Assembly: GCA_025800395.1 (NCBI GenBank)
Contig: JAOXRU010000119.1
Span: forward strand, 1-64,000
From: Flavobacteriaceae bacterium
Lineage (GTDB): Bacteria; Bacteroidota; Bacteroidia; Flavobacteriales; Flavobacteriaceae
Direction: 5' to 3'
DNA length: 64,000 nt
A program made the translations under genes and the position numbers. Numbering within the stretch: position 1 is the first letter of the stretch; the number at the start of each line of letters is the position of its first letter. Of the stretch, positions 1 to 57,613 are shown piece by piece. The notes beneath the pieces were generated by a model, which was not told the DNA's origin, made no database searches, and was given only the letters and a program-made list of their open reading frames with translations.

Positions 1-519
1 ACTGACACCTTTATTTGCAGATTTTAGACCGCCATTGGTCAAATATATATCGTGTTTTCCCGTACCGGCTAGATTGATTAAATTACCCGTTTGGGTTATA
101 TCTGTTTTATTAGCTACCGCAAAAACCTGATAATTACCAACTTCTAAATCCGAAAAATCAAACTTGTCATCCGTTGCATCAAAAGATAGGGTTGGGTTAA
201 AATTAATAGCCGAACTGTGGCTTCCTGCTCTAAAAATTGGTCGGGAATTTACAGTAGCCTGTGTTGGCGCTGTGGCAGCAGCATTGCCAAGAGCCTGATT
301 GGTCCAAGTTTCGACATTGGCATCTGCAACTGCAGCTGTAATCTCATCGGCCTTCAGCCATACTTCCAAGCCCTGTGAAACGGCTCCTGGTGATTGGGCG
401 GATACTAAATTTGTCCATAAACCAAAATATAAGACCAGACTTAAGTATGGTAAAATTTTATTGAAACGACAATTAATACAATGATTTAGATTGCCCCGAA
501 AGCTTTGTAAAGTTTCCAT
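1..519 (-). CDS. Large secreted surface/adhesin-like protein, N-terminal part only (gene runs off the left edge)
   Basis: Reverse-strand ORF open from ATG at 519 to base 1 (173 codons, no stop): METLQSFRGNLNHC...LVSAQSPGAVSQGLEVWLKADEITAAVADANVETWTNQ..., a signal-peptide-like start followed by the 'GLEVWLKAD' N-terminus typical of large Bacteroidota surface proteins. Not in the supplied ORF track because it has no stop in the window. Confidence 0.8.
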   Translation of the reverse strand, partial: METLQSFRGNLNHCINCRFNKILPYLSLVLYFGLWTNLVSAQSPGAVSQGLEVWLKADEITAAVADANVETWTNQALGNAAATAPTQATVNSRPIFRAGSHSSAINFNPTLSFDATDDKFDFSDLEVGNYQVFAVANKTDITQTGNLINLAGTGKHDIYLTNGGLKSANKGVS

Positions 520-569: not shown

Positions 570-631
570 TAAAAATACTACAACTTATATAAACTAATAC
601 ATATTTGTTGTTAACTCATCCGATTTTGTTG
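570..631 (-). promoter_or_regulatory. Candidate LytTR-type operator plus promoter (site A) for the left-edge surface protein
   Basis: Plus-strand TTGTTG at 605-610 and 626-631 (21-bp period); 27 bp from the proximal repeat lies taaaaata (570-577) = minus-strand TATTTTTA (-7 box TAnnTTTR). Confidence 0.65.
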
Positions 632-3557: not shown

Positions 3558-3589
3558 GGATGATAAAACAATAAGGTTGGTTTAATCCT

Positions 3590-3651
3590 CAATATTAAGT
3601 ATATTGCGTAGGAAAGTAAATTTTTTGTTGTAAGAAATATCTCTTTTGTTG
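3590..3651 (-). promoter_or_regulatory. Candidate LytTR-type operator plus promoter (site B) for the PorP/SprF-OmpA operon
   Basis: Plus-strand TTGTTG at 3625-3630 and 3646-3651; 27 bp away caatatta (3590-3597) = minus-strand TAATATTG (one mismatch to TAnnTTTG). Confidence 0.65.
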
Positions 3652-3770
3652 CAAAAGATAGACTCCGTGTAGTTTAGTAAGAAACTCGAGGTGATTTTAT
3701 AGGTTATTTACCGCTAAAACTGCAAAATGCATTATTATCTATTCATAATACAGTATAAGAACTTGTTTAA

Positions 3771-3808
3771 AAAAAAGTCGTCCTAGACCACATGGGCATA
3801 GAACGACT
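3771..3808 (-). terminator. Rho-independent terminator downstream of the giant adhesin-PorP/SprF operon
   Basis: Minus strand AGTCGTTCTA-(loop)-TAGGACGACT followed by T-run; lies 3' of the PorP/SprF gene ending at 3841. Confidence 0.75.
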
Positions 3809-3840
3809 ATATAAGCACCTAATATTATTTTTCGTAGATA

Positions 3841-4800: not shown

Positions 4801-4816
4801 AAACTCTTTTTATCTG

Positions 4817-7800: not shown

Positions 7801-10800
7801 TTATAGTCAGATACACAGTAGCCAAGTCACAGGCCTGTGGATTTCCATTATCACAAACACGATAAACGAATTTGTCTGCTCCCACATAACTAGGATTTAC
7901 TGTATATACAAAGCTTCCATCTGCATTCAAAACCAAACTACCATTTAGCGGCACTTCTACTGCAGCGGTAATGACTGTTTGCGCATCTCCTTCTGGATCA
8001 AAATCATTATCCAGAACATTTCCGCTGATATCGCCATTTCCTAAACGGAAATAAGCATCATCATTTGCAAAGGTCTTATTCTCTCCATTACTTGGTATAA
8101 CAGTGATTGTCACTTTTGCCGTATCGCAAAGACCTCCGCTAGCTACTTCACAAACGGTATAAGAGAAACTATCTTTTCCTATAAATCCATTCTTTGGTGT
8201 ATAGGTATACTTACCGGTAGCTGCATCTATATTTACGTCCACGCCACTACTGGTGGTAACCGTAATAGTAGTCACCTGTATGGCATCTCCGTCTGGATCA
8301 AAATCATTGGACATAACATTCCCTCCTACTGCTACACCAGCATAAGTGTTTGCAGTATCTGCATTTGCTATAGGCGCATGATTGTCCTCCAATGTACTAT
8401 GTAATATTTTTATAGTAACTGTGGCACTATCACAATTTGCAGGATCCGCTCCATCACATACTTCATATACAAAAGTATCCACTGTTCCTCCAGCATCTGA
8501 ACCTGCTTTATATTCATAGTTTCCATTGGTGTTAATTACAATCTCCACGCCATTGGTAGAAGTAATTCCTCCGCTTGGAATGCGAACTGATTTACTACTA
8601 CCAGCCACAATATCATTGGTAAGTACATTTCCTATAGCTACTTGCCCTTCAAAAACATTGTTGATATCATCTACAGCTATAGTAGAACTCATATTTACCG
8701 TGAGATATACTGTTGCCTGATCCATTGCGATTGGATTCCCATCATCGATCACTTCGTAAACAAAACTATCTGATCCGGCAAAACCATCATTTGGCTGATA
8801 ACTAAATGCTCCGTTTGCAGCTATAGTTACTTCACCATTGCTGGCGGCCACCACCAAGGTTGTATTTACAACTTGGACGTTGCCTTCAGGATCAAAATCA
8901 TTATCCAATACATTAGCAGTAATCGGATTACTTCCAATTCCTATGTATGCATCATCATTGGCTACGGTAATGTTTCCTTCATTTGGAATCACTTTGATAA
9001 ATACCATTGCCGAATCACAATTGGCTGGGTTTGCGGTATCGCATATGGTATAGCTAAAGCTATCATCGCCAACAAAGTTCGTTTCTGGAGTATAAGTAAA
9101 ACTACCATCCGCATTTAAAGTGACTTGAACTCCTTGTTGTGTCGTTAAATTCGTTTCTTGTATCGTTAAATTATCTCCTTCAGGATCAAAATCATTGGCC
9201 AAGATATTCGCTGTAAGAGGGGAATTCTCCTCTGTTAGCAAATTATCGTTGTTTGCCGTTGGGGCATCATTTTCATTTGGATCTTGAATATCAATCACTT
9301 CTATAAATACTCTCGCAGTATCACAAAGTGGTGGTGTACTGTCATCACATACAGTATAGTCGAAGAAATCGCTACCAACAAAATTCCTATTTGGCACATA
9401 GGTATAAGAACCATCACTTTTGAGGGTAATTTGTACCCCTGTATCGGAAGTGATTACAATTTCTTGTTGACCACTTGGTACCTGTACCATTTTGCTTTTT
9501 CCTTCTCCAACCCTATCATTGGTAAGTACATTACCAGATACTGCAACATTTTTCAAAGTATTATTGATATCATCTATCGCTATAGTAGATGCAATACATG
9601 TTTTTCCTTTAATAGGGGTTCTTCTAGGTTCACAACCTTGTTCTGTAGCATGTACAACAATGTCCATACCACTCGGTATTCTTTCAATTATGCCATTGGC
9701 AGGTGCTGGAACATTTGGAATTGGATTTCCAGAACTATCCGTAACAGTAATTGTCGTATTTGCTTTGCTCAAAAACTTGATGGTATACGTACCATCTCCT
9801 GCATCACTACAATTGGCTAAAACTAGCGCAAATGGTTTATCTGAACAGGTATTGGTAACATCACAATCATCTGGAGCATCTGTACCCATAGTCGTGCTAC
9901 AGTCTCCTATTGTAGCTGTAATAGAAACACTGCCATTGCCATCTACTACCACTTTGTTTCCTGTTCTTGTTCCTCCATCAACCGTAATCTGGGCTGCAGC
10001 ATCCGCATCGAAAAGAACTTCATAACCTACAACTTGGCCATTATCTATTCTACATAAAGTACTACTTATACTAAGATCGGGACTTTCACATACCGCTTTA
10101 CATCTATCTGCCGTATACCCAGTAACTGCAAGTTTGGTTTCACAACCTTGCTGATTGCTAGCCACCAATTCTATATTTGTACCATGCGGTATTCCTCGAA
10201 TTTGACTTAATTCTCTATGAAGTTCCCCTACCTGCTCTCCATTAGCAACATTTATCGCCTTAATGTATTTTGCATCGGTTATATAAGTCAATCTATACGT
10301 ATTACTATTTAATTCACATTCTAAATCTCCTGCAGATAGAATCGGGGAAGTACATATAGGACAGGCTTTCACTATGGTTGTGATTTCGTTACAATCTCCT
10401 TTTTTGGCTGTAACTTTAATATCCATTCCCCTAGGTATGTTTCTAATTGTACCATTGGCTTCATTTACCTGAATTCCAGCGATGGCATTGTTTTCCGTAT
10501 CTGTTACACTTATTACTGTTCCTATTTCCATTTGGAATACAACACTATAAGTGTCCCTATCTGTGTCACAGCTTGCAGCACCTATGGTAATAGGAGCATT
10601 AGCACAAGAGCTGTTACAATTCTCTGGACTTGTAGCTTCTAAACTAATGGTACAATCCCCATTGGAAGCAGTGACTATTACATCGTTACCCACAGGTACA
10701 ACCAGTATATTGTTCTCTATATTCCCAACACTCGCTTGCAAAACTGCTCCTGTAGTTTCTGTGATCACCAATGTATAGTTGTCTCCATCACACAATGGCT

Positions 10801-13800
10801 GACTTATGCTTAGATTGGGTTCAAAACAAGTAGTTTTATCACAATCTTCAGCTTCTGGTCCCGTGGCATCTATAGTCGTTTTACAACCAGTATCTAAAAC
10901 TGCTTCTAAACGGATATCGGTTCCTAACGGAATTTCGCTAATTTCTCCGGAAACCGAAGTATTTCCAACTTCTACTCCCTGTCCATTTATAGCTACTACT
11001 TTAGTCGCGCTAGACAAATATTTTATAATATAATTGGTACCATCTCCTGCACAGCTAATATCTCCTATGGTAAGTGTAGGTGTTGTACATAAAGGACAAG
11101 AAGGCACATCAATGACAGTACTATTGGCGCATCCTGCCAAACTTCCCTTTATACGTATATCTGTACCTCTAGGTATATTATTGATAGAGCCTTTGGCATT
11201 GTCTATACGAAGCCCATCGATAGTATTCCCTTCTAAATCAGTAACTTCTATAACTAAATTTGGAACAGCTACAAAGCCAACCGAATAGGTAAGGGCGTTA
11301 TCTGCATCACAACTTGCAAACAAGTTGCCCAATTTTGGTCCTTTACATTCATCTGCACAAACCTCAGCTGTAGGACTAAATACGGTATTTTCAAATCGAC
11401 AGTCTCCTTGCTGTGCGACAACAACTACATCTGTTCCTACTGGAGCCGTTATCGTATTGCCGTTTATAGTTCCTTGAACGCTACTTACTTCAAAACCTTC
11501 GCTTACAGAGAATTTAACAGCATACATATCATTTCCGATACAAACCGCATTGGTAACGCTAAACTCACCATCATCACAATTTGCATCACAGTGTTCTTGC
11601 GTTAATCCCTTCACTCCAATCTTCATTTCACAATCAATCTCGTTTTTCGCAAATACAGTGATATCTGTTCCTATAGGAATGTTGGTGATTATGCCATCTT
11701 GAGCCTCCCCAACTATTTGCCCTGCATTGTTGCGAGCAAAAACTTTAGCGGCATTACTCAAGAAACTAATACTATAGGTATTTCCTTCTGTACATTGCGC
11801 CTTTCCAACAGAAAGTGTCGTATCGGAACAACTTTGACAAGCATCCACATCAACGGTTACTGCATCACATCCAGCAACTTGTGCCTTGATTCTAACATCT
11901 ATACCTCTTGGTATATTCGATATACTATTCGCTCCTACTACAATTCCATTGATAGGATTATTTTCGGTATCGGTTACAATTACCTCTGCATTTGAAGCAA
12001 GGGTAAATAAGATTTTATAGGTTTCTTCATTCGCATCACAGGATGCTGCACTTATAGAAATTGGTGGATTCCCACAAACATCTGCGCAATTTTCTGGACT
12101 AGAAACGGTTATTTCATTTGTACAATCTCCATTGCTTGCTTTTATAAGGGCATCGGTACCAACTGGCATTCTAAGTATACCATCTGTAAGAACTCCATTG
12201 GCTGGAACTTCTATAGTAGCTCCTGTAATTTCTGATAAGGCTACCTCATAAAAGTTTCCATCTACACAGACTGCTTGTCCTACACTTAGGTTGGGTTTTT
12301 CACAAGTATCTTGACAGTTAGCAGCTGTCAATCCTTTTACATCCATAGAAAGAACACAACCGTTGTTCTTACTGGATTCAATAGTGACATCTACTCCTAG
12401 TGGTATATTACTTATTATACCGTTTATACTAGTATCTCCTACCTCGGAACCATCAGCTCTTTTGGCTACTACATTGGTACCATCGGTATGGTACTGAATG
12501 CTGTAAGATTCACCTAATAAAGCACACTCCAATTCTCCAACAGTAAGTAAGGAAGGTGAACAACTTGGACAACCAATTATTTCTACCTCCTTGGTATTCG
12601 CACAATTGGGGTCTGTAACGGTAAGTCGTATTCCTTGTCCTTTAGGAATATTATCTATGCTTGTTGCTGTTTGTGTTATTCCAGCTATGGCATTTCCATT
12701 GAGATCTGTCACACTTACACTTGTGGTGTTCGCTACGCTAAATGCAACAGAATAAAATTCATTCCCACTATCGCATTGTGCATCTCCTAGGGAAATATTC
12801 GGATTCAAACAAGCGACATCACAATTTTCTGGGCTCTTTATTGAAACCGTTTTAGTACAACTTCCTGCTGTAGCTGTTATAGTTACATCTTGATCTAACG
12901 GCACTGTAAGTACCATTCCATTTAACTGAGCATTTGCATTATCGAAACTTAGCGAAGCTCCTGCAGAAGCAGTTAATTGTACTACATAATTTCCGTTTTC
13001 ACAACGTGGTTGTCCAGCACTAATTTTTAATGCGTCACAATCTGTATTGTTACAATCGACCTCCGTCAAACCGTCAAATTCAATGCTACTCACACATCCA
13101 TTTTGATTGAAGGCTTGCACCACTACTTTCGTTCCAAAAGGAATATCCTTTATTGTTCCTTGTGTTTCTGTATTTCCAACCTTATTTCCATTTTCATCAA
13201 TAGCGATAACCTTTTCGGCATCGGTGGTATATTTTAGATTATACGTATTTCCACCAATATCACAACCGAGATTACCTGCAGTAAGTATTGGTAAATTACA
13301 GGTTGGACATGATGGTACATTGATTTCCACAGCTTCACAATCTCCAACTTCTACTTTTACGATAATATCAGTTCCTCTGGGAATACCTGTTATAGTTCCT
13401 TGAGAAGCATCAACATTTACCGTATTTGGCAGTATCCCACTTACAGCATTAACGCTAACGGTACTATTTTGCGGGTCTCGAAGTTTGAAATTCACCGTAT
13501 AGGTTTCACTATTATCTGCATCGCATATGGCATTCAACACACCTATTGGAGATGTAGAACATATTTGGTCACAATCTAAAGGCGGGCTAACTTCTATGGT
13601 TACTTCGCAATTATCTCCATTGGAGGCTGTTATCTGCAAATTATTTCCGTCTGTAACTGTTATAAGATTTCCATTTCTAGTTCCATTATTTGAAAAACTA
13701 ATAGTTGCTCCAGTATTTTCTGAGAACAAAACATCATATCCTCCACCTTCTCTACAAACTGCTTGTGCCACACTCAATTCAGGCATAAAACAGGCGGTGT

Positions 13801-16800
13801 TTTCACATTGGGCTTGGGTCATACCTGTTACTGAAGTACTCACCGTACACCCTGCTTGTTTGGTGGCCGTAACTATCACATTGGTTCCTAAAGGAATACC
13901 ACTAATCACACCATTTTCTTTGGTGCCTACAACTTGGCCATTGGTATCCAATGCAACCACATTATTGGTATTGGAAACAAAGGAAATATTGTATCCATTA
14001 CCATCCTTATTACACTGCAATGGTCCAACAGCAAGTGCTGGAGTTTGACAACTAGGACAAGCAGTGATATCCATTTCACTTACTTTGTCACATCCCGCAA
14101 GTGTTCCGCGAACTCTAATATCTGTTCCTCTGGGAATATTGGAGATTTTTGTAGCCTCTACCTGAATTCCATCAACGGCATTGCCATTAACATCGGTAAC
14201 TGACAGTTGAATGTTGTCATCACTTTTAGTAAGATTTACACTATAGGTATTGCTATTATCTGCATCACAAGAGGCTGCACCAAAGCTGATTTTTGGTTCT
14301 TCACAATCTTCTACTGTTGTACAATCTACTTTTGGCGCTACCGCTCCAAGTGTGACCGTACAATTTTGACCATTGGTGGCGGTAACAGTAGCTGATCCAA
14401 AGCCCATTACTATCAAAATTCCGTCTTCTATAGTTCCTCCTGTAGCGCTTAGGGTAGCGCCAGTATTTTCTGTTATCTGCACTTTATAGCCCGTAGTACC
14501 ATTGCATATGGAATTACCTATACTTAATTTTGGTTTTACACATTCCAGACTTGGATCGCAATCTTCTGCTGTAAAACCGGTGACGTTTATTTCGGAAACA
14601 CAACCTGATTCTACAAAAGATTGCACCGTAACGTTGGTACCGTGTGGAATATCACTGATCCTACCTTGTACCGAATTATCTCCTACAATATTTCCTGCTT
14701 CATCTCTTGCTATTGTGGTAACCCCATTTGTTGTATTATAATGCACTATATAAGTGTTGCCATCTCCACATTCTAGGTTTCCTGCCGTAAGTGGTGGGGC
14801 ATTACAGGACGGACAAGATTTTACAGTTACTGAGGAAGCAGTACATCCTGCTTCTGATACGGTTACTTTAAGATCTGTTCCTCTAGGAACATTAGTAATG
14901 GTTCCTGCTACTTTGTCTATTGCGATTCCTGCTACCGCACTTCCGTCTAAGGCAGTTGCGGTAACTATCGTATTGTTATCATTAGCATTTCTCACCAGAA
15001 ACTTAACCGTATATGTAGCAGAATCATCTGCATCACAAGAGGTTCCTGTAAGGGAAATACTAGGATTCAAACATGCCTCATTACAGTTTTCTGGAGCTTG
15101 TATCGTCAATTCATCTGAACAAGTTCCATTGGTAGCCGTAATGGTCACCTCATTTAAATTAGGGACGGTAACCACTTGTGTATTGGCGTCTATACTACCG
15201 TTACTCACAGAAATGGTAGCATCCATATTTACAGAAACTTGGACTCTATATCCATCTGAGTTATCATCCAAACAAATGGCCTGTCCACTAGAAAGCTTTG
15301 GCTCGACACAACTTTGGTTTTCACATTCTGCTTGGGTTTTCCCTTTAACAGATATAATTGTCTTACAACCCGCCTCTTTCTCTGCTTCCAATTCTACGTC
15401 TAGACCAAATGGAATATTAGAAATCAGACCTTCTAGATCATAGTTACCTACTATGGTTCCATCGGCTCGACGGGCTACCACCTCAGCATCTGAATCCGCG
15501 GCGTATTCTATTTCATAAGTAGTGTCCGAACACTTAGTATCTACTACAGTCAATAATGGTTTACTACAGTTAGGACAAGCCTTTACAAGTACCTCTGCCT
15601 CTTCACAGTCTCCTGTTTTGGCTTTTACCAATACATCTACACCTCTAGGTATACCGCTTATCCTACCATTGGCAATATTGGTTCCATTTATGGGGTTTCC
15701 TGAAGAATCTGTTACCGTAACTGTGGTATTTTCTCTGGCAACAAAACCAACACTATACGTTAGTTCGTTATTATTATCGCATTCGGCAGTACCCAAACTT
15801 ATAGGCGCTGCCAAACAAGTATCTTCACAATTGATTGGTGCCTCTAAAGTGATTTGTATTTGACAGGCTCCGTTGGTAGCAGTAATTGTAGTAGCGGTAT
15901 TGGCATCAACGGTTATTACACCATCGACTAATGTTCCTTGAGAAATAGCAATGGTAGCTCCAGTTGTTTCGGTGATTTTTGCTTGATAACCGTTCTCTCT
16001 ACAAATAGCTTGTCCCACCACAAGCTTGGGCTGCTCACAATCTACTGAATCATCACATTGGGCATTAGTTAATCCATCTATCTTCATAGTTGTTGCACAG
16101 CCAATACCAGTTGCAGCCTCTACTATTACATTCTCTCCCAAAGGGATGTTTGTAACTTCGCTATTGGCCATATCTATATTTCCAACTGCATTTCCAACTG
16201 CATTAGTAACTTTAATATCTTGTGCATTGGATTGGAAAATGAAGCTATAGGTTCCTCCATTTTCACAAGATAAATCCCCAACAGTAAGCAAAGGGGTTTG
16301 ACAAAACGGACAAGCAGGAACGGTAACCACAAACTCTTGATTACATCCCTCTCTCTGCGCTTTTACAATGATATCAACACCTCTTGGTATATTGCTGATC
16401 CTTCCATTATTAGTGTCGATCTGTACTCCTGCTATTGCATTTCCATTGGTGTCTTCTACACTTACTGTCGTATTGGATATTGTTTTAAACGGAACAGCAT
16501 AAACGCTTCCATTTGGATCGCAAATTGCCGCTCCCAAGGCTACACTAGGATTCCCACAAGGATCATTGCAATTGATAGGTCTGTCGACACCCATGGTAAC
16601 CGTACAAGCCCCGTTACTAGCTGTAATGGTAGCACTAGCATTTGCTTCAGGAATCTGCCAAACACCATTCACTATATTTCCAGAAGAAACATTCAGCGTG
16701 GCACCATCAGAAGAATTTACGATTACCTCATAAAAATCGCCATTACATATGGGTTGACTTACCCTCAAATCGGGTACTTCACAGTTGAGAGTACCATCGC

Positions 16801-17563
16801 ACTGTTGCTGTGTCAGACCATTTATAGCAATAGTTGTGGTACACCCACCTGCGGTGGAGGCTATAAGATTAAAATTTGTTCCAAATGGTATACCCGAAAT
16901 CACTCCAGCTACACTATTATCTCCTACAGTAGTACCGTCGTTTGTTCTTGCACTAACAGGCTGATCTGAAAAGTAGAACAGACTAAATGTACTGCTACTG
17001 CTATCACAAGTCAATTCCCCAGTATTGAGAATTGGTCGTTTACACAAGCTTGTGGATGTTCGCTCCGATATCTCTCCTTCTGAATTTACATTTGGATTGG
17101 TAGAGGAAACACTTGCACTCATCACTATATCATTTACTCCTATAGCAGAATTTTCTAAAACTTCTAAAGGAACAACAGCTGTTACACCTGTATTGGCAGG
17201 AAATAATACGGATTGGGTAAATACTAGCTCTCCCTCGGCACTGTTATAAGAAGCCGTAAAGAAATCTAAAATATTTCCTAATCCTTCTATTTCTTGGAAG
17301 GTGATGAGGCTTACATCGCCATCCTTTAACCCAATTTTTTCTAGTTCTAAAGTGATCCTCAATACTGGTTGTCCATTATTCAATGGTATATCCAATCCGG
17401 TAATTTCACTGAAGGCGAAACTAAATTCACCTTCCCCATTTTCCTCCACAGGAGGAAGAACGCTAGGTTCAAAACCGTCTAGAGGTGTTACGACCACAGA
17501 TTGCGCCATAAGGCCCTGACCCAATAGCCAAAATACCAACAGTAATCTAAGTGCTTTTTTCAT
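4817..17563 (-). CDS. Giant repetitive cell-surface adhesin (SprB-like organisation) with type-B T9SS sorting domain
   Basis: 4248 aa; signal peptide; tandem Cys-containing modules; cadherin/Big_9-like repeats ('VLTNDxVxG...FxYxVCDGxNPAxCD'); TSP3-type Ca-binding repeats ('DCDGDGVSNGKEIEDKTDPSDGC'); C-terminus 'ENGIVTPNNDGINDYIHINNIESFKNNKVEVFNRWGVKVFEAEGY...GTYFYIITY' (gliding-motility-associated C-terminal domain type). Confidence 0.93.
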   Translation of the reverse strand: MKKALRLLLVFWLLGQGLMAQSVVVTPLDGFEPSVLPPVEENGEGEFSFAFSEITGLDIPLNNGQPVLRITLELEKIGLKDGDVSLITFQEIEGLGNILDFFTASYNSAEGELVFTQSVLFPANTGVTAVVPLEVLENSAIGVNDIVMSASVSSTNPNVNSEGEISERTSTSLCKRPILNTGELTCDSSSSTFSLFYFSDQPVSARTNDGTTVGDNSVAGVISGIPFGTNFNLIASTAGGCTTTIAINGLTQQQCDGTLNCEVPDLRVSQPICNGDFYEVIVNSSDGATLNVSSGNIVNGVWQIPEANASATITASNGACTVTMGVDRPINCNDPCGNPSVALGAAICDPNGSVYAVPFKTISNTTVSVEDTNGNAIAGVQIDTNNGRISNIPRGVDIIVKAQREGCNQEFVVTVPACPFCQTPLLTVGDLSCENGGTYSFIFQSNAQDIKVTNAVGNAVGNIDMANSEVTNIPLGENVIVEAATGIGCATTMKIDGLTNAQCDDSVDCEQPKLVVGQAICRENGYQAKITETTGATIAISQGTLVDGVITVDANTATTITATNGACQIQITLEAPINCEDTCLAAPISLGTAECDNNNELTYSVGFVARENTTVTVTDSSGNPINGTNIANGRISGIPRGVDVLVKAKTGDCEEAEVLVKACPNCSKPLLTVVDTKCSDTTYEIEYAADSDAEVVARRADGTIVGNYDLEGLISNIPFGLDVELEAEKEAGCKTIISVKGKTQAECENQSCVEPKLSSGQAICLDDNSDGYRVQVSVNMDATISVSNGSIDANTQVVTVPNLNEVTITATNGTCSDELTIQAPENCNEACLNPSISLTGTSCDADDSATYTVKFLVRNANDNNTIVTATALDGSAVAGIAIDKVAGTITNVPRGTDLKVTVSEAGCTASSVTVKSCPSCNAPPLTAGNLECGDGNTYIVHYNTTNGVTTIARDEAGNIVGDNSVQGRISDIPHGTNVTVQSFVESGCVSEINVTGFTAEDCDPSLECVKPKLSIGNSICNGTTGYKVQITENTGATLSATGGTIEDGILIVMGFGSATVTATNGQNCTVTLGAVAPKVDCTTVEDCEEPKISFGAASCDADNSNTYSVNLTKSDDNIQLSVTDVNGNAVDGIQVEATKISNIPRGTDIRVRGTLAGCDKVSEMDITACPSCQTPALAVGPLQCNKDGNGYNISFVSNTNNVVALDTNGQVVGTKENGVISGIPLGTNVIVTATKQAGCTVSTSVTGMTQAQCENTACFMPELSVAQAVCREGGGYDVLFSENTGATISFSNNGTRNGNLITVTDGNNLQITASNGDNCEVTIEVSPPLDCDQICSTSPIGVLNAICDADNSETYTVNFKLRDPQNSTVSVNAVSGILPNTVNVDASQGTITGIPRGTDIIVKVEVGDCEAVEINVPSCPTCNLPILTAGNLGCDIGGNTYNLKYTTDAEKVIAIDENGNKVGNTETQGTIKDIPFGTKVVVQAFNQNGCVSSIEFDGLTEVDCNNTDCDALKISAGQPRCENGNYVVQLTASAGASLSFDNANAQLNGMVLTVPLDQDVTITATAGSCTKTVSIKSPENCDVACLNPNISLGDAQCDSGNEFYSVAFSVANTTSVSVTDLNGNAIAGITQTATSIDNIPKGQGIRLTVTDPNCANTKEVEIIGCPSCSPSLLTVGELECALLGESYSIQYHTDGTNVVAKRADGSEVGDTSINGIISNIPLGVDVTIESSKNNGCVLSMDVKGLTAANCQDTCEKPNLSVGQAVCVDGNFYEVALSEITGATIEVPANGVLTDGILRMPVGTDALIKASNGDCTNEITVSSPENCADVCGNPPISISAASCDANEETYKILFTLASNAEVIVTDTENNPINGIVVGANSISNIPRGIDVRIKAQVAGCDAVTVDVDACQSCSDTTLSVGKAQCTEGNTYSISFLSNAAKVFARNNAGQIVGEAQDGIITNIPIGTDITVFAKNEIDCEMKIGVKGLTQEHCDANCDDGEFSVTNAVCIGNDMYAVKFSVSEGFEVSSVQGTINGNTITAPVGTDVVVVAQQGDCRFENTVFSPTAEVCADECKGPKLGNLFASCDADNALTYSVGFVAVPNLVIEVTDLEGNTIDGLRIDNAKGSINNIPRGTDIRIKGSLAGCANSTVIDVPSCPLCTTPTLTIGDISCAGDGTNYIIKYLSSATKVVAINGQGVEVGNTSVSGEISEIPLGTDIRLEAVLDTGCKTTIDATGPEAEDCDKTTCFEPNLSISQPLCDGDNYTLVITETTGAVLQASVGNIENNILVVPVGNDVIVTASNGDCTISLEATSPENCNSSCANAPITIGAASCDTDRDTYSVVFQMEIGTVISVTDTENNAIAGIQVNEANGTIRNIPRGMDIKVTAKKGDCNEITTIVKACPICTSPILSAGDLECELNSNTYRLTYITDAKYIKAINVANGEQVGELHRELSQIRGIPHGTNIELVASNQQGCETKLAVTGYTADRCKAVCESPDLSISSTLCRIDNGQVVGYEVLFDADAAAQITVDGGTRTGNKVVVDGNGSVSITATIGDCSTTMGTDAPDDCDVTNTCSDKPFALVLANCSDAGDGTYTIKFLSKANTTITVTDSSGNPIPNVPAPANGIIERIPSGMDIVVHATEQGCEPRRTPIKGKTCIASTIAIDDINNTLKNVAVSGNVLTNDRVGEGKSKMVQVPSGQQEIVITSDTGVQITLKSDGSYTYVPNRNFVGSDFFDYTVCDDSTPPLCDTARVFIEVIDIQDPNENDAPTANNDNLLTEENSPLTANILANDFDPEGDNLTIQETNLTTQQGVQVTLNADGSFTYTPETNFVGDDSFSYTICDTANPANCDSAMVFIKVIPNEGNITVANDDAYIGIGSNPITANVLDNDFDPEGNVQVVNTTLVVAASNGEVTIAANGAFSYQPNDGFAGSDSFVYEVIDDGNPIAMDQATVYLTVNMSSTIAVDDINNVFEGQVAIGNVLTNDIVAGSSKSVRIPSGGITSTNGVEIVINTNGNYEYKAGSDAGGTVDTFVYEVCDGADPANCDSATVTIKILHSTLEDNHAPIANADTANTYAGVAVGGNVMSNDFDPDGDAIQVTTITVTTSSGVDVNIDAATGKYTYTPKNGFIGKDSFSYTVCEVASGGLCDTAKVTITVIPSNGENKTFANDDAYFRLGNGDISGNVLDNDFDPEGDAQTVITAAVEVPLNGSLVLNADGSFVYTVNPSYVGADKFVYRVCDNGNPQACDLATVYLTIKMGTTVAIDDINSIFMDETATGNVLTNDVVAGDVKTVTTNSVTSAQGVAVSITEDGTYIYTPPTGYIGGDTFAYTVCDGSNPAVCDEAVVHIQVLPEPGDETNSPPIANTDTAKTLMDIAINGNVLSNDFDPDGDAIISKPVTNSNIASKQGAKIVLQENGNFSYEPVPGFIGQDTFEYILEDDANPKNTAKGLVVVTVFPLDRGNSTFANDDAYLTFAGKIVKENVLLNDFDPEGNTQTVNTTPVVAPQNGTLVLNNDGSFEYMPNPGSSGTDQFVYQVCDDGSEQACDQATVYLVADPTACELPTLSAGIVSCNGSTYEVGFVTNGSVSASAGSVDLENKRIINIPLGADVVITASQNGDCSTDITVKAPGSCPTECTMPKLFLGNPVCEGNNTYKVAISETTGAALTLSAGATLDASQKVITASVGTNISVTAKNGNCEVVMELNSPLDCSVTCTTPVISFSGTECAEVEGGNYIVNFVANINATVNADKGSLSFDNTTGIGSVIVPFDQGAVTIKASTEDCDEISTTIDACSDVPNQCPGLNLVISDPLCESLNGNIYSVSFSVTPGTTIIVTGGTYNENTNSITASLGNDIIINAELNGCEITRRVTSPQDCSDACLVKPLNVETVECTSTSTYSVNFTSSLPNATFLPSAGTLQGNSVVNIPNGTDLSILVQIPGCADKTVIVPNTLWGALDCDGDGVSNGKEIEDKTDPSDGCSYLKASQDITKVSEDWRALDCDGDGENNGDEVDNNTDPLNGCDNTDKELPPSDGENYDAWAALDCDGDGLNNGEEASGIDSADTAIEAKTTTDPYKPDTDGDGVTDGRESTDDTDPKDPCSFIKESQTLTPTADWNALDCDGDGVNNGDEIEDGTDPLDPCDSIGGTPPPGAACDIEIENGIVTPNNDGINDYIHINNIESFKNNKVEVFNRWGVKVFEAEGYDNNAVKFEGRSNARATLSADDLLPTGTYFYIITYQKKGEEVVLQGYLYINL
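5110..5720 (-). repeat. Thrombospondin type-3-like Ca-binding repeats preceding the C-terminal sorting domain
   Basis: DCDGDGVSNGKEIEDKTDPSDGC, DCDGDGENNGDEVDNNTDPLNGC, DCDGDGLNNGEEAS, DTDGDGVTDGRESTDDTDPKDPC, DCDGDGVNNGDEIEDGTDPLDPC. Confidence 0.9.
6890..9600 (-). repeat. Array of cadherin-like/Big_9-type repeats within the adhesin gene
   Basis: Repeated 'NDxDPEGDxxxV...GxxxxNxDGSFxYxPxxxFxGxDxFxYxVCD...CDxAxVxIxV'. Confidence 0.85.
9600..17050 (-). repeat. About ten tandem ~745-bp (~248-aa) three-module super-repeats encoded in the adhesin gene
   Basis: The conserved CPxC-type junction recurs near 16310, 15570, 14810, 14060, 13305, 12568, 11838, 11095 and 10360 (spacing ~730-760 bp), each between 'IPRGTDIxVKA' and 'LTVGxLxC' modules. 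Confidence 0.85.
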
Positions 17564-45624: not shown

Positions 45625-46284
45625 ATGAAAAAGAAATTATTTATTGGATTAGTTGGATTGTTTCTCCTTCAATCTTGTATCTTAAAATCTCTACGTCCTT
45701 TTTACACCCAGGATAAGCTAATAGACCTATCGGAATTTCAAGGAACATGGTCAGATTCTAAAAACGGTAGTTGGGAATTGCTATCTGTGGAAAAAGATAT
45801 TACAAACCATAACGACGGAAAAAAATTATCTAAAGACGATCAGGAGGCTTTAAAAAAATACGGCAAAGGACTTTTAATAAAATACACAGAAGACAAAAAA
45901 GAGGTCACCTTTATTGCTATGGGGTTTCAGGTTAACAATGCAATTTTTATAGATTTCACTCCAGTTCACTTAGAAAGCAATGATATGAATGAACTTGGAA
46001 AACAACATTTGGTGGAAACCCATTCGGTAGCCAAATTAGAACGAAAAAACAAAAATGAAGTTTCTCTAATATGGTTAGAAGAAAAAGACTTAAAACCATT
46101 ACTGGAAGAACAAAAATTAAAACTAGATCATATGAAAAACAACATATCATTATCTGGGAATGATCTTTTACTAACTGCCTCTCCCAAAGAATTATACCAG
46201 TTTTTAGTAGCTTTCAACAAAAGCCATGCTAAGGAAATTCAAGAATCTGATGACGCGTATCACTTAAAGCGAAAGGATGTCTAA
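45625..46284 (+). CDS. Hypothetical lipoprotein
   Basis: 219 aa; MKKKLFIGLVGLFLLQSCIL lipobox-like N-terminus; overlaps the following kinase gene by 8 nt. Confidence 0.75.
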   Translation: MKKKLFIGLVGLFLLQSCILKSLRPFYTQDKLIDLSEFQGTWSDSKNGSWELLSVEKDITNHNDGKKLSKDDQEALKKYGKGLLIKYTEDKKEVTFIAMGFQVNNAIFIDFTPVHLESNDMNELGKQHLVETHSVAKLERKNKNEVSLIWLEEKDLKPLLEEQKLKLDHMKNNISLSGNDLLLTASPKELYQFLVAFNKSHAKEIQESDDAYHLKRKDV

Positions 46285-47314
46285 AGCGCAAAAACTATTT
46301 TCTAAATATTTCATTTGGCCTATTGTTCTTTGGACAATAGGCTTGGTGATATTAGGGTTAATTTTTGGCCATGGAACCCCTAAAAAAATTGATTGGATCT
46401 ACAGCTTAGTTTTTAGTTTATTGGCACTGCCTGTAATTTATATAGTAAATCATTGGTTTTTTCGTTTGTTGTTAAAAAAAGACAAGTGGTTTTTGTATCT
46501 ATCATTTAGTTTGCTCCTCATTCTAATATTTACTTGGTTAACCGAGAAGTTTATGCCTATGGTTTTAGAAAGCAGCTTCCCTACTTATTTATTTATTTCG
46601 TATCCAAGTTCTTATGCTTGGATGGGGTTGTATGCCACTTATGTTTTGCTTGCTATTTTATTTTACATGGCTATCGATTGGCACCAACGATTTCAGAATG
46701 AAAAAAGACTTTTGCAAGAACATCACCAACTCTTACAGGGTCAGCTCCAACAACTGCGAGGGCAAATACACCCACTTTTTTTATTTAATGCATTAAATGT
46801 GATTTATTCTTTGCAATTAACCAAGAGAAAAGAAACGACTGCCGCCATACTGCAATTGTCGGATATACTGCGCTATGTATTGTATCAAACCAATAGGCCC
46901 ATTCCACTAGAAGAAGAGATTGCCCTATTGGAAAATTATATACAATTCCAACAATTTCGCATACAGCATCGGGTAAAGTTCGAAAAAGAAATAGAAGATC
47001 CCCAGTATCTCCTATCTCCCATGCTGATTTTGCCAATCTTAGAGAATTGCTACAAACACGGTTTTGAAAACAGTTTAGCCGACAACGAATTATATGTATA
47101 TTTATCACAAAAGGGAAACCATTTTGAGTGTCGAATCCGAAACAGCAAGGGTCAGTCATCCAATGCAGAAAAAAAGGAAGGAATAGGCTTGGCAAACCTT
47201 AGGCAACAATTGGAGATTCAATATCCACAAGGCTTCCAGTTAGCTATTAAAGAAACAGATCATTATTTTGAAGTATGTCTACAATTAAACCAAGCTATAG
47301 TTGCATCATCATAG
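46277..47314 (+). CDS. LytS/YehU-type sensor histidine kinase
   Basis: 345 aa; 'LRGQIHPLFLFNALNVIYSLQLTKR', 'LSPMLILPILENCYKHGFEN', 'GIGLANLRQQLEIQYP'. Confidence 0.9.
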   Translation: MSKAQKLFSKYFIWPIVLWTIGLVILGLIFGHGTPKKIDWIYSLVFSLLALPVIYIVNHWFFRLLLKKDKWFLYLSFSLLLILIFTWLTEKFMPMVLESSFPTYLFISYPSSYAWMGLYATYVLLAILFYMAIDWHQRFQNEKRLLQEHHQLLQGQLQQLRGQIHPLFLFNALNVIYSLQLTKRKETTAAILQLSDILRYVLYQTNRPIPLEEEIALLENYIQFQQFRIQHRVKFEKEIEDPQYLLSPMLILPILENCYKHGFENSLADNELYVYLSQKGNHFECRIRNSKGQSSNAEKKEGIGLANLRQQLEIQYPQGFQLAIKETDHYFEVCLQLNQAIVASS

Positions 47315-48003
47315 AAGATGAAATCGCTTCACAAAATGTGCTTGTACAGTATATAAAGGATAGTCTCAACTTAGAATTAATTGGCGTATACGCCAATGCC
47401 ATATTGGCACAACAAGATCGAGATCACTGGGATCAGGTAGATTTGCTTTTCTTGGATATCCATATGCCCAAGCTTACTGGCTTGGAGTTTCTAAAAACTC
47501 TGAGCACACCAAAGCCTGTAATTTTCACCACGGCCTACTCGGAATATGCAGTAGAGGCCTTTCAAATACAAGCCATCGATTATTTATTGAAACCTTTTTC
47601 TTTTGAGCGCTTTTTGCGAGCCGTAGACAAATTTATCGCTACTCAAGCTCACAGTTCCCCCAAAAAAGAAGCCATACTCATTAAAGAAAACAAAAGTTTG
47701 TATCGCATACGATATCAGGATTTGCTATATATCGAAGCCAAAGGAGACTATGTACAATTGCATCTAGAGAACGAACGTCGGCTTACACATGCCAGATTTT
47801 CTACTTTTCTAACGCAACTACCAAGCAACTTTGTACGTTGCCATAAATCCTATGCAGTGAATATACATTACATACAAAGCATTAGCGGAAAATATTTGCA
47901 ATTAATTAATTTTAAAGTACCTATAGGAGCCACTTACAAAGAAGCCTTCCTTAAACAAATTTCTCTCCAAACTTTGTTCAATAGAAATAATTACAACTTA
48001 TAG
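47275..48003 (+). CDS. LytTR-family response regulator
   Basis: 242 aa; receiver 'DLLFLDIHMPKLTGLEFL' and LytTR 'YIEAKGDYVQLHLENERRLTHARFSTFLTQLPSNFVRCHKSYAVNIHYI'. Confidence 0.94.
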   Translation: MSTIKPSYSCIIIEDEIASQNVLVQYIKDSLNLELIGVYANAILAQQDRDHWDQVDLLFLDIHMPKLTGLEFLKTLSTPKPVIFTTAYSEYAVEAFQIQAIDYLLKPFSFERFLRAVDKFIATQAHSSPKKEAILIKENKSLYRIRYQDLLYIEAKGDYVQLHLENERRLTHARFSTFLTQLPSNFVRCHKSYAVNIHYIQSISGKYLQLINFKVPIGATYKEAFLKQISLQTLFNRNNYNL

Positions 48004-52741: not shown

Positions 52742-52807
52742 ATTTACAGTAGAAACCAATACTTTACTTTTAGTTTCTTATTTCCAAGGCTTTTTAATCT
52801 TACTAGG

Positions 52808-52905
52808 TTTGGGTTAGGGATAGGAACGGCATCCTTTTGGTTTTTAAAAAAACCAAAAGATACAGTGAATAGCCCGACCAGTCGTCATCGGACGGCTGGG
52901 AACCC
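52808..52905 (-). ncRNA. Putative structured 3'-UTR element, copy 2
   Basis: Minus strand CCAGCCGTC-CGAT-GACGACTGG hairpin, GGGCTATTCACTGTATC, TTTTGGTTTTT/AAAAACCAAAA hairpin, GGATGCCGTTCCTATCCCTAACCC; immediately 3' of the hydrolase gene ending at 52931. Confidence 0.5.
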
Positions 52906-53646: not shown

Positions 53647-55593
53647 TTAGCTAAAATTAAACCAAAAACGAACACCATCCGCTTTTTCGTCTATATTGAG
53701 GTGGGATTTGAGCTGATTTACCAATCGATTCACCAAATTGAACCCCATAGAAGACTTGGTACGTTCTTCCATATCGGTAGGGAGACCTATACCATCATCG
53801 CAATATTCGAAATAACCATTATTCTCTTTCAGTTCTAGTTTTATTCGAATGGTTCCATCCTCTTTGTTTGGAAAAGCATATTTGTAGGAATTGGATACCA
53901 ATTCGTTTAGTATCAACCCAAATGGTATCGCTCTATCGATATCCAATTCTGTATTTGCGGCATCTATCTCTATCTCTACATGATTGGAGTCTCTGTTATA
54001 CAGTGTTTTGATGCTATTGACCAAGGTTTCTATATACCCCTGCATCTCAATTACAGACAAATCGTCGTTTTGATACAGTTTTTGGTGTATGAGCGCCATG
54101 GCTTTCACCCGACTCTTTCCTTCTTCCAATGCCTCTATTGCAGCCTTACTCTTGGTGTTCTTGGCTTGTATAGACAACAGACTGGATACCATTTGTAAAT
54201 TGTTCTTTACACGGTGGTGAATTTCTTTCAACAGAGAGTCTTTCTCTATGAGCGAAGATTCGATGATTTTCTTTTGTTCGTTGATCACCCTTCTACTGCG
54301 AACGGTTTTGCGATATGCCAAAAAGAGACCAGTAATAGCAAAAAGAGTAAGTCCCAAAGCAATATATGTATTGGTAAGGGTTTGGTCTTTTTCTTGTATT
54401 CTACCCTCTGTTTCCTTTATGTTTTTTTCGTATTTAACAATCTCACTTCGGTGTCTTTCCAAATCCACATCAGCAAGCAAGGCTGTGGCTTTCATTCGAA
54501 ACATTATATTGTCCAAAGAATCCTGCATACGAATGTATCTTTTATAATAGATACTAGCAGAATCGAACTGCTGGTTTTTGTTGTAATATTCTGCCAACAT
54601 ATGATCCCTTTTCATCTTGCTATTTGGATTTTTTATTGGCACCTTATTTATTAGAAAGTTTTTGGCAATTTGAAAGTTCCCAAGTTTCATGTGACAATGT
54701 GCTAAATCCAACATATAATCCAATTCCTCCTTGGTGTATTTGTTTTGTTTATACTCCCTTATCATTTCGATGGCATTGGTCAAATCTGGTATGGCATCTT
54801 TATACCGTTTTTGTGCCAATTTGCACTTTCCGATATTTCCTATGATGGTAGCCTCTATCCAATGTGCTTGGGCGCGTTCTTGTTCGGATCGGGGGGTGTT
54901 GAGGGTGTTGTTGTACACTCCCAAATAATTGAGTGCTGCATCGTAGCGCTTCATAGCCGTTTCTAGGCTACTCCCTTTTTTGCGCAAAAATTCAGCTATC
55001 TGATTCCAATAAATCGCTTGTCCGAGATGATCGCCATCTGGTAAAAAACGATTTTCATGGAAATAATCACTCATGGCCTCATCGTACAATCCTATATTGT
55101 CATATATGTCATACAGCCTGTCTCCAGGAAAACCATATTCTCTTTTTTGTTGACGAATTTTGAGCTGTTTGTTGTACTCCATCAACTCCCCATAATTACT
55201 ATCCATCACTTGTAGCAAATATCGCAGCTCGTTCTTACTCAGACTTTCTTGATTTTGATGGAGATAGTTTGCTGTATTTAAACTCTCCTGATAGTCTCCA
55301 AGGTCGTAGTGGATCTGTGCTAAAATTATTTGATATTTAATGAGTTTGGAAGAATCTTGAGCTTTGTTGGCCATTTCGATTTTCTTCGAAAGCTTATCCC
55401 GCCAATCATATGCTGACTTAATAATATATTTATCGGAGGTTTCAAAGAAATATTGAAATTTGCCGTTTATCGTAGAAATTGTATCAAAAACACTTAAAGG
55501 ATTTAAGTTGGTTTGCATCTGAGCAGTTGCTACTCCAATACAGCCATACAGAAAGATCCCTAAAAAAGAAAACTTTTTTAACACCTGAAACAT
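53647..55593 (-). CDS. TPR-containing sensor histidine kinase (HisKA_2/HWE-like)
   Basis: 648 aa; signal peptide, TPR region, TM, 'LLKEIHHRVKNNLQMVSSLLSIQAKNTKSKAAIEALEEGKSRVKAMALIHQKLYQND', HATPase 'LILNELVSNSYKYAF'. Confidence 0.94.
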   Translation of the reverse strand: MFQVLKKFSFLGIFLYGCIGVATAQMQTNLNPLSVFDTISTINGKFQYFFETSDKYIIKSAYDWRDKLSKKIEMANKAQDSSKLIKYQIILAQIHYDLGDYQESLNTANYLHQNQESLSKNELRYLLQVMDSNYGELMEYNKQLKIRQQKREYGFPGDRLYDIYDNIGLYDEAMSDYFHENRFLPDGDHLGQAIYWNQIAEFLRKKGSSLETAMKRYDAALNYLGVYNNTLNTPRSEQERAQAHWIEATIIGNIGKCKLAQKRYKDAIPDLTNAIEMIREYKQNKYTKEELDYMLDLAHCHMKLGNFQIAKNFLINKVPIKNPNSKMKRDHMLAEYYNKNQQFDSASIYYKRYIRMQDSLDNIMFRMKATALLADVDLERHRSEIVKYEKNIKETEGRIQEKDQTLTNTYIALGLTLFAITGLFLAYRKTVRSRRVINEQKKIIESSLIEKDSLLKEIHHRVKNNLQMVSSLLSIQAKNTKSKAAIEALEEGKSRVKAMALIHQKLYQNDDLSVIEMQGYIETLVNSIKTLYNRDSNHVEIEIDAANTELDIDRAIPFGLILNELVSNSYKYAFPNKEDGTIRIKLELKENNGYFEYCDDGIGLPTDMEERTKSSMGFNLVNRLVNQLKSHLNIDEKADGVRFWFNFS

Positions 55594-55722: not shown

Positions 55723-55784
55723 CAAATCTAACGTAAATTGCATGGGAATAATAGTTTTTGTTGTAAATGGAAAAAATATTGTTG
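55723..55784 (-). promoter_or_regulatory. Candidate LytTR-type operator plus promoter (site C) for the histidine kinase gene
   Basis: Plus-strand TTGTTG at 55758-55763 and 55779-55784; 27 bp away caaatcta (55723-55730) = minus-strand TAGATTTG, a perfect TAnnTTTG -7 box. Confidence 0.7.
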
Positions 55785-56022
55785 TGAACAAGAACGGAAC
55801 TCAAGTCAATCCGACTAAATGCCGAAAATTGTAGGAAAACCATTTTTTGTAGTACAATGGAATGCTAATCAACTTTATAGAAAGTGCTGGCTTATTTGAA
55901 AGATACATCAGTCCGTATCGGTATTGATCACTTGGAGAAGTGTCACACATCTGCAAAACCTCTTATAGATCGTGCGTGAGAAAAAACCTATTTATAAAAG
56001 GTGTCCATTAAACATTCCAGAT

Positions 56023-56111
56023 AAAAAAAAGCCTCAAATAAATCCGAGGCCTTTTCTAACTTGAGAACACTATATGAAAATGAAAAGAATTATACTTTTT
56101 TTCGTTGTTTA
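56023..56111 (-). ncRNA. sRNA-like unit 3 (~89 nt) ending in an intrinsic terminator
   Basis: Core TTTTCATTTTCATATAGTGTTC (complement of 56065-56086), then TCAAGTTAGAAAA and terminator GCCTCGGATTTATTTGAGGC-T8; promoter site D upstream. Confidence 0.65.
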
Positions 56112-56116
56112 CATAG

Positions 56117-56178
56117 TAAAAGTACAACACAATCTACATTTGCACTAATTATTGTTGTGAACCACATCTAGTTTGTTG
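56117..56178 (-). promoter_or_regulatory. Candidate LytTR-type operator plus promoter (site D) for sRNA unit 3
   Basis: TTGTTG at 56152-56157 and 56173-56178; -7 box TACTTTTA (56117-56124), 27-bp spacing. Confidence 0.65.
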
Positions 56179-56331
56179 CCAATTAGCTAAAATCGTATGT
56201 GTAGGTTTTTTCTTTTTCTTAGCTATGTTTTTACTACTGTTTGATAATAGCAAACTGCTTGGCATGTGCCACAATAAGTTTTTTATTTTTATTAAAATAC
56301 TCAGGCATATTCGTATAAAACGTATTGGAAT

Positions 56332-56430
56332 AAAAAAAACCTCAAAAAGGACTTCTGAGGTTTTTCTAACTTGAGAACACTATATGAAAATGAAAAAAAT
56401 TATCTGTTTTTTTTTATTGTTTTTCAATTA
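56332..56430 (-). ncRNA. sRNA-like unit 2 (~99 nt) ending in an intrinsic terminator
   Basis: Core complement of 56375-56396; shares 35 nt (TTTTCATTTTCATATAGTGTTCTCAAGTTAGAAAA) with unit 3; 10-bp stem AAAAACCTCA/TGAGGTTTTT + T8. Confidence 0.65.
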
Positions 56431-56435
56431 CAATG

Positions 56436-56497
56436 TAAATATATAGCAAGCTTTTGTTTGCACACAAAAATTGTTGTAAACGCATTGAATCTTGTTG
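56436..56497 (-). promoter_or_regulatory. Candidate LytTR-type operator plus promoter (site E) for sRNA unit 2
   Basis: TTGTTG at 56471-56476 and 56492-56497; -7 box TATATTTA (56436-56443), 27-bp spacing. Confidence 0.65.
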
Positions 56498-56630
56498 TGA
56501 GGTGCTTCAAAAATGTTATTTAGAGAATTTTATAACTATTTATCGCTATTTTACCGAAATCATGATTTCCTATTGCGCCAATTAGATCGTTCTTAAGAAT
56601 CGAAAAACTAAAAATGGAATTATCTATGAT

Positions 56631-56726
56631 AAAAAAAAAGAGTCCTATTGCTAAGACTCTTTTAAATGAACACTATATGAAAATGAAAAGATTTGAGGCG
56701 ACTCGTAAAGAGTCCTCTAAATTTTC
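56631..56726 (-). ncRNA. sRNA-like unit 1 (~96 nt) ending in an intrinsic terminator
   Basis: Core complement of 56668-56689; 5' hairpin GAGGACTC-TTTAC-GAGTCGCCTC; terminator AAAAGAGTC/GACTCTTTT + T9. Confidence 0.6.
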
Positions 56727-56731
56727 ATCAC

Positions 56732-56793
56732 CAAAAATAAGTGGCTTGCTTGTTTCTATAAAAATAATGTGGTGAAATACAGAATAGCTGTTG
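56732..56793 (-). promoter_or_regulatory. Candidate LytTR-type operator plus promoter (site F, degenerate) for sRNA unit 1
   Basis: Minus strand CACAACA and CACCACA at 21-bp period; -7 box TATTTTTG (56732-56739) at the same 27-bp spacing. Confidence 0.55.
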
Positions 56794-56869: not shown

Positions 56870-57613
56870 CTATAAATTCATAGAAGAAAGAATAAACTCT
56901 CTAAATTCCTTAGAAATTGGTATTAAATTATCATTTATAAGAATGCCCCTAGAATTGATTGCTTCAATTCGGTCTACATTTACGATATAAGACTTATGTG
57001 CCCTATAAAAGCTGTTGGGGAGTTTTTCCAAATAATCTTTTAGCGGAGATCGTACCAAGAACTTTTTTTCTTTGGTGTTGATTTCTAGATAGACATTATC
57101 CGCCTTTATAAAAAGTATATCTTCAAACTGTACTCTATAATATAGGTGTTGTTTTTTGACGAAAATGGAATTATCCAAAATAGAACTAGTGGTAACTTTT
57201 GCTTCTTCAACCTCTTTGATTTCGCCAGATTCTTTGAGGTGTAAATTCGAAATGGCGATTTCGATTGCAGCGTACAAATCCTGTTGTTCAAAAGGTTTTA
57301 CCAAATAGCCGTTTGGCTTCACATCTTTCGCCTTCTCCACCGTAGCGCGATCGGAGTTTGAGGTAACAAAAACAAAAGGAATATTGTAATTTTCTCTAAT
57401 GTGTCTACCAAGATCTATTCCGGTTTTATCGGAGGCTAAAATAATGTCAATTAAAACGAGGTCTACTTGTTTGTTTTTTAGGACTTCTACAGCTTGCTCA
57501 TATATAATAACGTTTCCAACCACCTCGTATCCAATCTCTTCCAACATAGATTGCATATCATCGGCAATAATCACGTTATCTTCTACTATCAATATTTTAA
57601 TAGGATCGTTCAA
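56870..57613 (-). CDS. LytTR-family response regulator
   Basis: 247 aa; 'IKILIVEDNVIIADDMQSMLEEIGYEVVG...DLVLIDIILASDKTGIDLGRHI' receiver, LytTR 'FIKADNVYLEINTKEKKFLVRSPLKDYLEKLPNSFYRAHKSYIVNVDRI'. Confidence 0.95.
   Translation of the reverse strand: MNDPIKILIVEDNVIIADDMQSMLEEIGYEVVGNVIIYEQAVEVLKNKQVDLVLIDIILASDKTGIDLGRHIRENYNIPFVFVTSNSDRATVEKAKDVKPNGYLVKPFEQQDLYAAIEIAISNLHLKESGEIKEVEEAKVTTSSILDNSIFVKKQHLYYRVQFEDILFIKADNVYLEINTKEKKFLVRSPLKDYLEKLPNSFYRAHKSYIVNVDRIEAINSRGILINDNLIPISKEFREFILSSMNL

Follow-up and report, generated by a model that had tools for sequence, protein, structure and literature searches.

A LytTR-type two-component system associated with a direct-repeat promoter and a family of predicted sibling sRNAs in the Flavobacteriaceae

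On a contig of a Flavobacteriaceae bacterium, the genes encoding a LytTR response regulator (RR) and a sensor histidine kinase (HK) are separated by an intergenic region carrying several copies of one direct-repeat promoter, which raises the question of what these promoters transcribe, which regulator uses them and what their products act upon. We addressed this question on the first 64,000 nucleotides of the contig, here called the window, and in related genomes. Comparative sequence analysis establishes the geometry of the promoter, the existence of an sRNA family, the linkage of this family to the RR and the conservation of pairing at the start of a CAP lipoprotein mRNA. We consider it probable that the HK/RR system drives its own kinase gene and three sibling sRNAs (D, E and F) through a single promoter type, and that in relatives the sRNA core most likely blocks translation of the CAP lipoprotein. 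The features involved are collected in Table 1.

Table 1. Coordinates and properties of promoter sites, predicted sRNAs and genes in the window, and of conserved units behind the same promoter in relatives
Feature	Position	Strand	Description	PWM score
Site A	570..631	-	direct repeats and TATTTTTA box; among the 0-mismatch matches of the genome-wide scan	30.9
Site B	3590..3651	-	good direct repeats, poor box TAATATTG; upstream of PorP/SprF gene 2565-3557	
Site C	55723..55784	-	direct repeats and TAGATTTG box; predicted promoter of HK gene	36.8
Site D	56117..56178	-	direct repeats and TACTTTTA box; predicted promoter of sRNA D	39.0
Site E	56436..56497	-	direct repeats and TATATTTA box; predicted promoter of sRNA E	39.1
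Site F	56732..56793	-	degenerate direct repeats and TATTTTTG box; predicted promoter of sRNA F	36.9
sRNA D (predicted)	56022..56110	-	ends approximate; core 56065-56086; terminator stem; fold z -2.5	
sRNA E (predicted)	56332..56429	-	ends approximate; core 56375-56396; terminator; fold z -1.5	
sRNA F (predicted)	56633..56725	-	ends approximate; core 56668-56689; extra 5' hairpin and terminator; fold z -3.8	
Response regulator RR	56870..57613	-	receiver and LytTR DNA-binding domain; Pfam PF00072 1.3e-21, PF04397 2.7e-17	
Sensor histidine kinase HK	53647..55593	-	648 aa; TPR, HisKA_2 and HATPase (Pfam)	
Secreted protein start	1..519	-	METLQSFRG...GLEVWLKAD...; cut by contig end; ORF ~50 nt after site A box (L331)	
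Second LytS-like kinase	46277..47314	+	first gene of a pair spanning 46277-48003	
Second REC-LytTR regulator	47275..48003	+	second gene of the same pair	
Flavo-1 RNA	52801..52883	+	near HK gene; Rfam RF01705, 57.9 bits	
Conserved 32-aa frame	L341, L342, L352, L360, L365, L366, L369		MLYDTYGEEYL(S/T/A)FLQ(E/D)LNEILS(L/V/I)NEL(V/A)ELDY(M/L); highly conserved; relatives	
Second RNA family	L332, L333, L337, L345, L346, L354, L355, L358, L361, L362		relatives	

Geometry and membership of the direct-repeat promoter

The initial annotation had proposed six promoter sites (A to F), and their coordinates, the 21-bp period of their half-sites and the 27-bp distance to the downstream box were all confirmed in the sequence. 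The direct repeats are thus real, but the half-site consensus first given as TTYACAACAA is better written TTCACMACAA. Sites A, C, D, E and F consist of two such half-sites at a period of exactly 21 bp, followed after 27 bp by a TAnnTTtR box; the half-sites of site F are degenerate (CAACAG and CCACAT).

Within the window, the loose pattern CAACAA-N15-CAACAA was found 46 times with up to two mismatches, against 13.2 ± 3.5 in shuffled sequences, and the strict half-site/half-site/box pattern four times, always on the minus strand, against none in 200 Markov-1 simulations. The genome-wide enrichment anticipated for the 21/27 geometry was also observed, as the corrected pattern gave ten matches in the whole genome to which the window belongs (one in the reversed control) and 75 matches over eight genomes (one control match). 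With at most one mismatch, loose half-site pairs abound in this AT-rich genome (105 places, 72 in controls), as a functionless chance alignment of AT-rich repeats would have it, but the excess of 75 to 1 once the box is included and the strong phylogenetic conservation of sites and sRNA leave that explanation a negligible probability.

A non-circular sample was assembled from 80 named loci encoding REC-LytTR orthologues with 76-80% identity to the RR, in Allomuricauda/Flagellimonas, Arenibacter, Maribacter, Cellulophaga, Robiginitalea, Muriicola, Eudoraea, Croceivirga and other genera, and a motif model (PWM) was trained on the RR-HK intergenic regions of 68 orthologous loci from other genomes. 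These 68 regions hold 140 sites on the sense strand and none on the reverse strand, against zero to two in shuffles, and a period of 21 was seen in 74 of the approximately 105 half-site pairs listed. The resulting profile reads TTCACMACAA, 11 poorly conserved bases, TTCACAACAA, 27 bases and TAnnTTtG, with little conservation in between. When sites were chosen with no regard to the box, a TAnnTTTG-like box lay at +27 in 124 of 135, and by sequence and position this -7 box fits a Bacteroidota sigma-A promoter. Applied to the window, the model places only E, D, F, C and A above threshold; every other score, that of site B included, is 12 or lower.

LytTR sites in general comprise two 9-11-nt repeats with spacers of 11-13 nt (PMC4847170), and E. 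coli YpdB binds two 10-nt direct repeats (GGCATTTCAT) separated by an 11-nt spacer, with the same 21-bp period as here but a repeat sequence that differs from TTCACMACAA (PMC4847170). The assignment of the window's sites to the LytTR type, made initially from the window, is supported by the 68 intergenic regions and by the period shared with YpdB: judged from sequence, the sites have the arrangement expected of LytTR targets, in which two direct repeats of 9-11 nt, spaced by 11-13 nt, precede a promoter.

Promoter matches in the window's own genome precede the sRNAs, the HK gene, genes for secreted proteins or lipoproteins (L331, L349, L350 and L323), genes for two proteins of no known kind (L371 and L307) and a locus outside the window (L348, C640:98560). 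The incomplete secreted protein behind site A, which returned no match in a Pfam search, is likely to be controlled by this site. Control of surface and secretion genes had also been proposed, and the part concerning surface proteins is plausible because other secreted proteins (L350 and L323) also have sites in this genome. The part concerning the type IX secretion (T9SS) machinery was not supported: it rests on site B, upstream of a PorP/SprF gene, and site B, which has a poor box and fails the independent motif model, is a doubtful member of the regulon.

Two observations concern loci at or outside these sites. The minus-strand region 661-17563, where two PorP/SprF genes (2565-3557 and 3841-4800) lie between a giant ORF of 4248 aa upstream and an OmpA-PD40 protein gene downstream, resembles a surface protein operon associated with the T9SS. 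At L348, the motif match precedes a stretch of ~110 nt that ends in a strong terminator-like hairpin, and then a TetR gene, and this stretch is possibly an additional sRNA or an attenuator of the regulon.

Sibling sRNAs and their association with the response regulator

Sites D, E and F each precede a predicted transcript of ~90 nt in which the 22-nt core UUUUCAUUUUCAUAUAGUGUUC stands ahead of an intrinsic terminator, with the putative transcription start placed ~7 nt after the box (sRNA D) and the terminator of sRNA F located by scanning at 56663-56636. The core, which the initial annotation had overlooked together with its mRNA target, is unpaired in the predicted fold of sRNA F, and most of it is also free of pairing in the folds of sRNAs D and E. 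Over 37 aligned copies it is invariant while its flanks have diverged, and in the terminator stem 10 of 13 pairs have changed on both sides. By these sequence features (own promoter, short transcript, intrinsic terminator and conserved unpaired core), D, E and F fit a family of trans-acting sRNAs. No Rfam family matched the sRNA at gathering score, and sub-threshold hits were chance-like terminator matches only.

Two of the three window copies open a short hydrophobic frame on the plus strand, where the repeat GAACACTATATGAAAATG... could be read as the start of short ORFs (MKMKRIILFF..., MKMKKIICFF...) or as a repeat element containing no sRNA core. This reading is highly implausible, as the plus-strand frame is kept neither in the third window copy nor in relatives, conservation ends at the core, and almost all copies retain the promoter and the terminator on the minus strand.

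Of 301 Flavobacteriaceae genomes sampled, 51 contain a match to the core; three of these matches appear to be fortuitous, which leaves ~48. The core is invariant across dozens of genera. Positive genomes usually carry one to five copies, often dispersed. Of the 84 distinct core matches examined in other genomes, 77, many of them far from the RR, are immediately preceded by the promoter with a score above 20. Among the 80 named RR loci, the exact core adjoins the RR in 58, and the other 22 (Arenibacter, Cellulophaga and others) have no intact core beside it.

Most of the 80 named loci keep the gene order UbiA-RR-intergenic region-HK, an HK orthologue with ~45% identity lies downstream of the RR-sRNA region in most of them, and an HK-proximal site equivalent to site C is kept in relatives, as is the RR-sRNA-HK order itself. 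Orthologues of the RR (E below 1e-100) were identified in all 47 sRNA-positive genomes tested, with 73-80% identity in the 46 other than the window's own, against one of 33 sRNA-negative genomes. The formal probability of this co-occurrence is 1.5e-21, a value whose statistical weight is overstated, since it partly reflects shared ancestry. The proposed link between the sites and the adjacent LytTR regulator is thereby corroborated by conserved order and co-occurrence, and the same comparative evidence supports the proposal that this regulator controls its own kinase and several sRNAs.

The promoter could be real and yet bound by another protein, either the second LytTR regulator of the window or a further paralogue: the second REC-LytTR protein has its own kinase (Table 1), and these genomes carry several LytTR paralogues. 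We consider this quite improbable, given that sites and sRNA adjoin the RR at 56870 in dozens of genera and that orthologues of this RR are absent from nearly all sRNA-negative genomes tested. Because co-occurrence and adjacency combine with a 21-bp period typical of LytTR proteins, the RR encoded at 56870-57613 is the likeliest binder of sites C to F.

We infer that these sites are transcribed and that the RR acts on them as an activator rather than as a repressor. In the proposed mechanism, the phosphorylated RR would occupy the pair of TTCACMACAA repeats at their 21-bp period, and the TAnnTTtR box, exactly 27 bp downstream, would be recognised by RNA polymerase carrying the housekeeping sigma factor of Bacteroidota. 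Activation of the HK gene would constitute positive feedback, and activation at sites D, E and F would yield the three tandem sibling sRNAs. A Flavo-1 RNA also lies near the HK gene (Table 1); no connection between it and the sRNAs was seen.

The CAP lipoprotein start as a conserved sRNA target

Three core matches without a promoter belong to protein genes, in each of which the start region is an almost exact complement of the core, AGAACACTATATGAAAATGA, ATG included. The gene encodes a lipoprotein of ~158 aa with a CAP domain (PF00188, 3.7e-13). Of all complements of the core outside the sRNAs, CAP lipoprotein starts are the closest. In relatives, a duplex of ~20 bp across the start codon is possible between the core and the CAP start sequence GAACACUAUAUGAAAAUGA. 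All 47 sRNA-positive genomes tested encode a CAP homologue, in most with 46-100% identity to the query, and in most of them the ATG occupies the same place in the complementary site. The nearest relatives of the query carry one or two extra copies of GAGAACAC upstream.

Conservation of pairing was assessed on 30 CAP orthologues with a lipobox-supported start and 16 other CAP homologues, which include paralogues in the same genomes and the homologues of sRNA-negative genomes. Site positions in the orthologues are 81% Watson-Crick, 8% G-U and 11% mismatched, against 36%, 6% and 58%, respectively, in the other homologues. Apart from those at the outermost base, the most frequent substitutions replace C by T at -4 (opposite G) and A by G at -2 (opposite U); the former turns a G-C pair and the latter an A-U pair into a G-U pair. 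Mean predicted duplex energy is -28.4 kcal/mol in the orthologues, -11.7 kcal/mol in the other homologues and -9.7 kcal/mol (sd 2.8) in shuffled leaders; core pairing at the CAP start is absent in paralogues and in sRNA-less genomes. Initiation in F. johnsoniae benefits from an A at -3 (PMC6847099), but position -3 is T in 29 of the 30 orthologues, and conservation for efficient initiation therefore fails to explain the site. Taken as sequence evidence, these results indicate that the sRNA core has conserved complementarity to an mRNA translation start in relatives.

The core might instead mainly titrate a protein, as CsrB-type RNAs do, or pair with many mRNAs, the CAP match being minor or secondary. 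An invariant 22-nt core is longer than a single target needs, CAP positions vary through G-U pairs while the core does not, and the window's genome keeps three identical cores with no CAP target identified. In 12 genomes, however, nearly all non-sRNA matches without mismatches (wobble allowed) are CAP starts, and the remainder at one mismatch is near control level and includes few gene starts. Almost no other gene start in these genomes pairs as well, which leaves CAP as the single conserved target identified, and a mainly titrating or promiscuous core appears unlikely. On the preferred reading, the sRNA core would cover the start codon of the CAP mRNA and most likely block 30S initiation; since pairing lies at the start codon, the predicted sign of the effect is repression. 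Immediately ahead of the sRNA site, the CAP mRNA leaders (L225-L262) also contain CCTACTTACAAA.

In the window's own assembly (94.6% complete, 667 contigs) there is no close CAP orthologue, and its CAP homologues are distant (32-34% identity to the query) and lack the sRNA site. A pattern search of this genome found no confident sRNA target. The best gene-start candidate at one mismatch, the start of a small secreted protein (L427), and a DEAD-box-helicase-like start (C461:38140, L297) both occur at chance frequency, and gene starts within the window gave a best duplex of -20.7 kcal/mol, which is unconvincing.

Related systems and the regulon in relatives

A literature search for flavobacterial LytTR-sRNA circuits found no earlier description of the sRNA or of such a circuit, in agreement with the initial annotation, which knew of none. 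The regulator belongs to a known family; as far as the literature was searched, the RNA family, the promoter code and the target are apparently new.

The functionally closest systems are the CiaR-dependent csRNAs and, where a regulatory RNA is combined with a LytTR regulator, VirR/VR-RNA. The csRNA promoters carry direct repeats at fixed spacing and the csRNA core pairs near the translation start, features predicted for the present sRNAs as well, but CiaR, unlike the LytTR RR, belongs to the OmpR type and uses other repeats. VirR/VR-RNA and AgrA/RNAIII of Staphylococcus aureus, both with a LytTR-type regulator, combine direct repeats upstream of a promoter with a regulon that holds both a regulatory RNA and exported proteins. 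The LuxO-controlled Qrr sRNAs of Vibrio resemble the present sRNAs in being multiple siblings that share an invariant core and are controlled by a single response regulator, but they depend on sigma-54 and Hfq and on a regulator class other than LytTR. We know of no sRNA regulon for YpdB and, within the Bacteroidota, of few sRNAs described together with a conserved transcription factor, a promoter code and an mRNA target. One response regulator in streptococci (CiaRH) is reported to govern several highly similar csRNAs, as proposed here, and these control competence by targeting comC (PMC4507080, PMC8186281). The csRNAs are found in Firmicutes and differ from the present sRNAs in sequence and targets. 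Reports on VirR/VirS and VR-RNA in Clostridium perfringens similarly concern a LytTR-type regulator together with a regulatory RNA (PMC4963840, PMC2838878). VR-RNA and RNAIII are single large RNAs of another phylum, in contrast to small siblings with an invariant core complementary to a start codon. Rfp18 of Flavobacterium psychrophilum is a conserved flavobacterial sRNA affecting secreted proteins (proteases) (PMC9723704). Considered as a relative of the present sRNAs, it is set apart by its description, which gives it at least three stem-loops, assigns target pairing to the third and mentions no connection with LytTR.

Bacteroidota initiate translation without Shine-Dalgarno sequences, and this circuit offers a specific start-codon target. 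Exact promoter geometry, an invariant core and a defined target together make LytTR regulation, sRNA action and target choice each testable by single mutations, and members of the regulon are predictable from sequence in many genomes of the clade.

Several further units lie behind the same promoter in relatives. A 32-aa protein (MLYDTYGEEYL.FLQ.LNEILSLNELVELDYM; Table 1), with no match in a Pfam search, directly follows the promoter in seven of seven relatives, and a second conserved frame of ~33 aa (MEAQ.NQT.EDIQVY.NEFFSGIVMLTKKLFML) follows it in four of seven (L334, L356, L363 and L364). An ECF sigma factor gene behind the promoter in five of seven relatives (L339, L347, L353, L359 and L370) suggests a cascade. 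A second type of noncoding RNA, ~130-170 nt long, terminator-ended and often in tandem, contains repeated CCCAAATC and ACCTACTTA motifs and a 5' ATAGTGTTGACC. That all these units form one clade-wide, RNA-centred signalling system of the Flavobacteriaceae, in which the LytTR regulator would control sibling sRNAs acting at a start codon, the second noncoding RNA family, the ~32-aa proteins and an ECF sigma factor, and which would resemble Qrr or csRNA networks in function, is a proposal we regard as evenly balanced.

Two minor observations concern these units. An ORF resembling acetyltransferases, as judged by eye, comes after the ~33-aa frame in L334, L363 and L364, and the second RNA family carries, just before the terminator (L332-L362), the sequence ACCTACTTAAC, a motif common with the CAP mRNA leaders.
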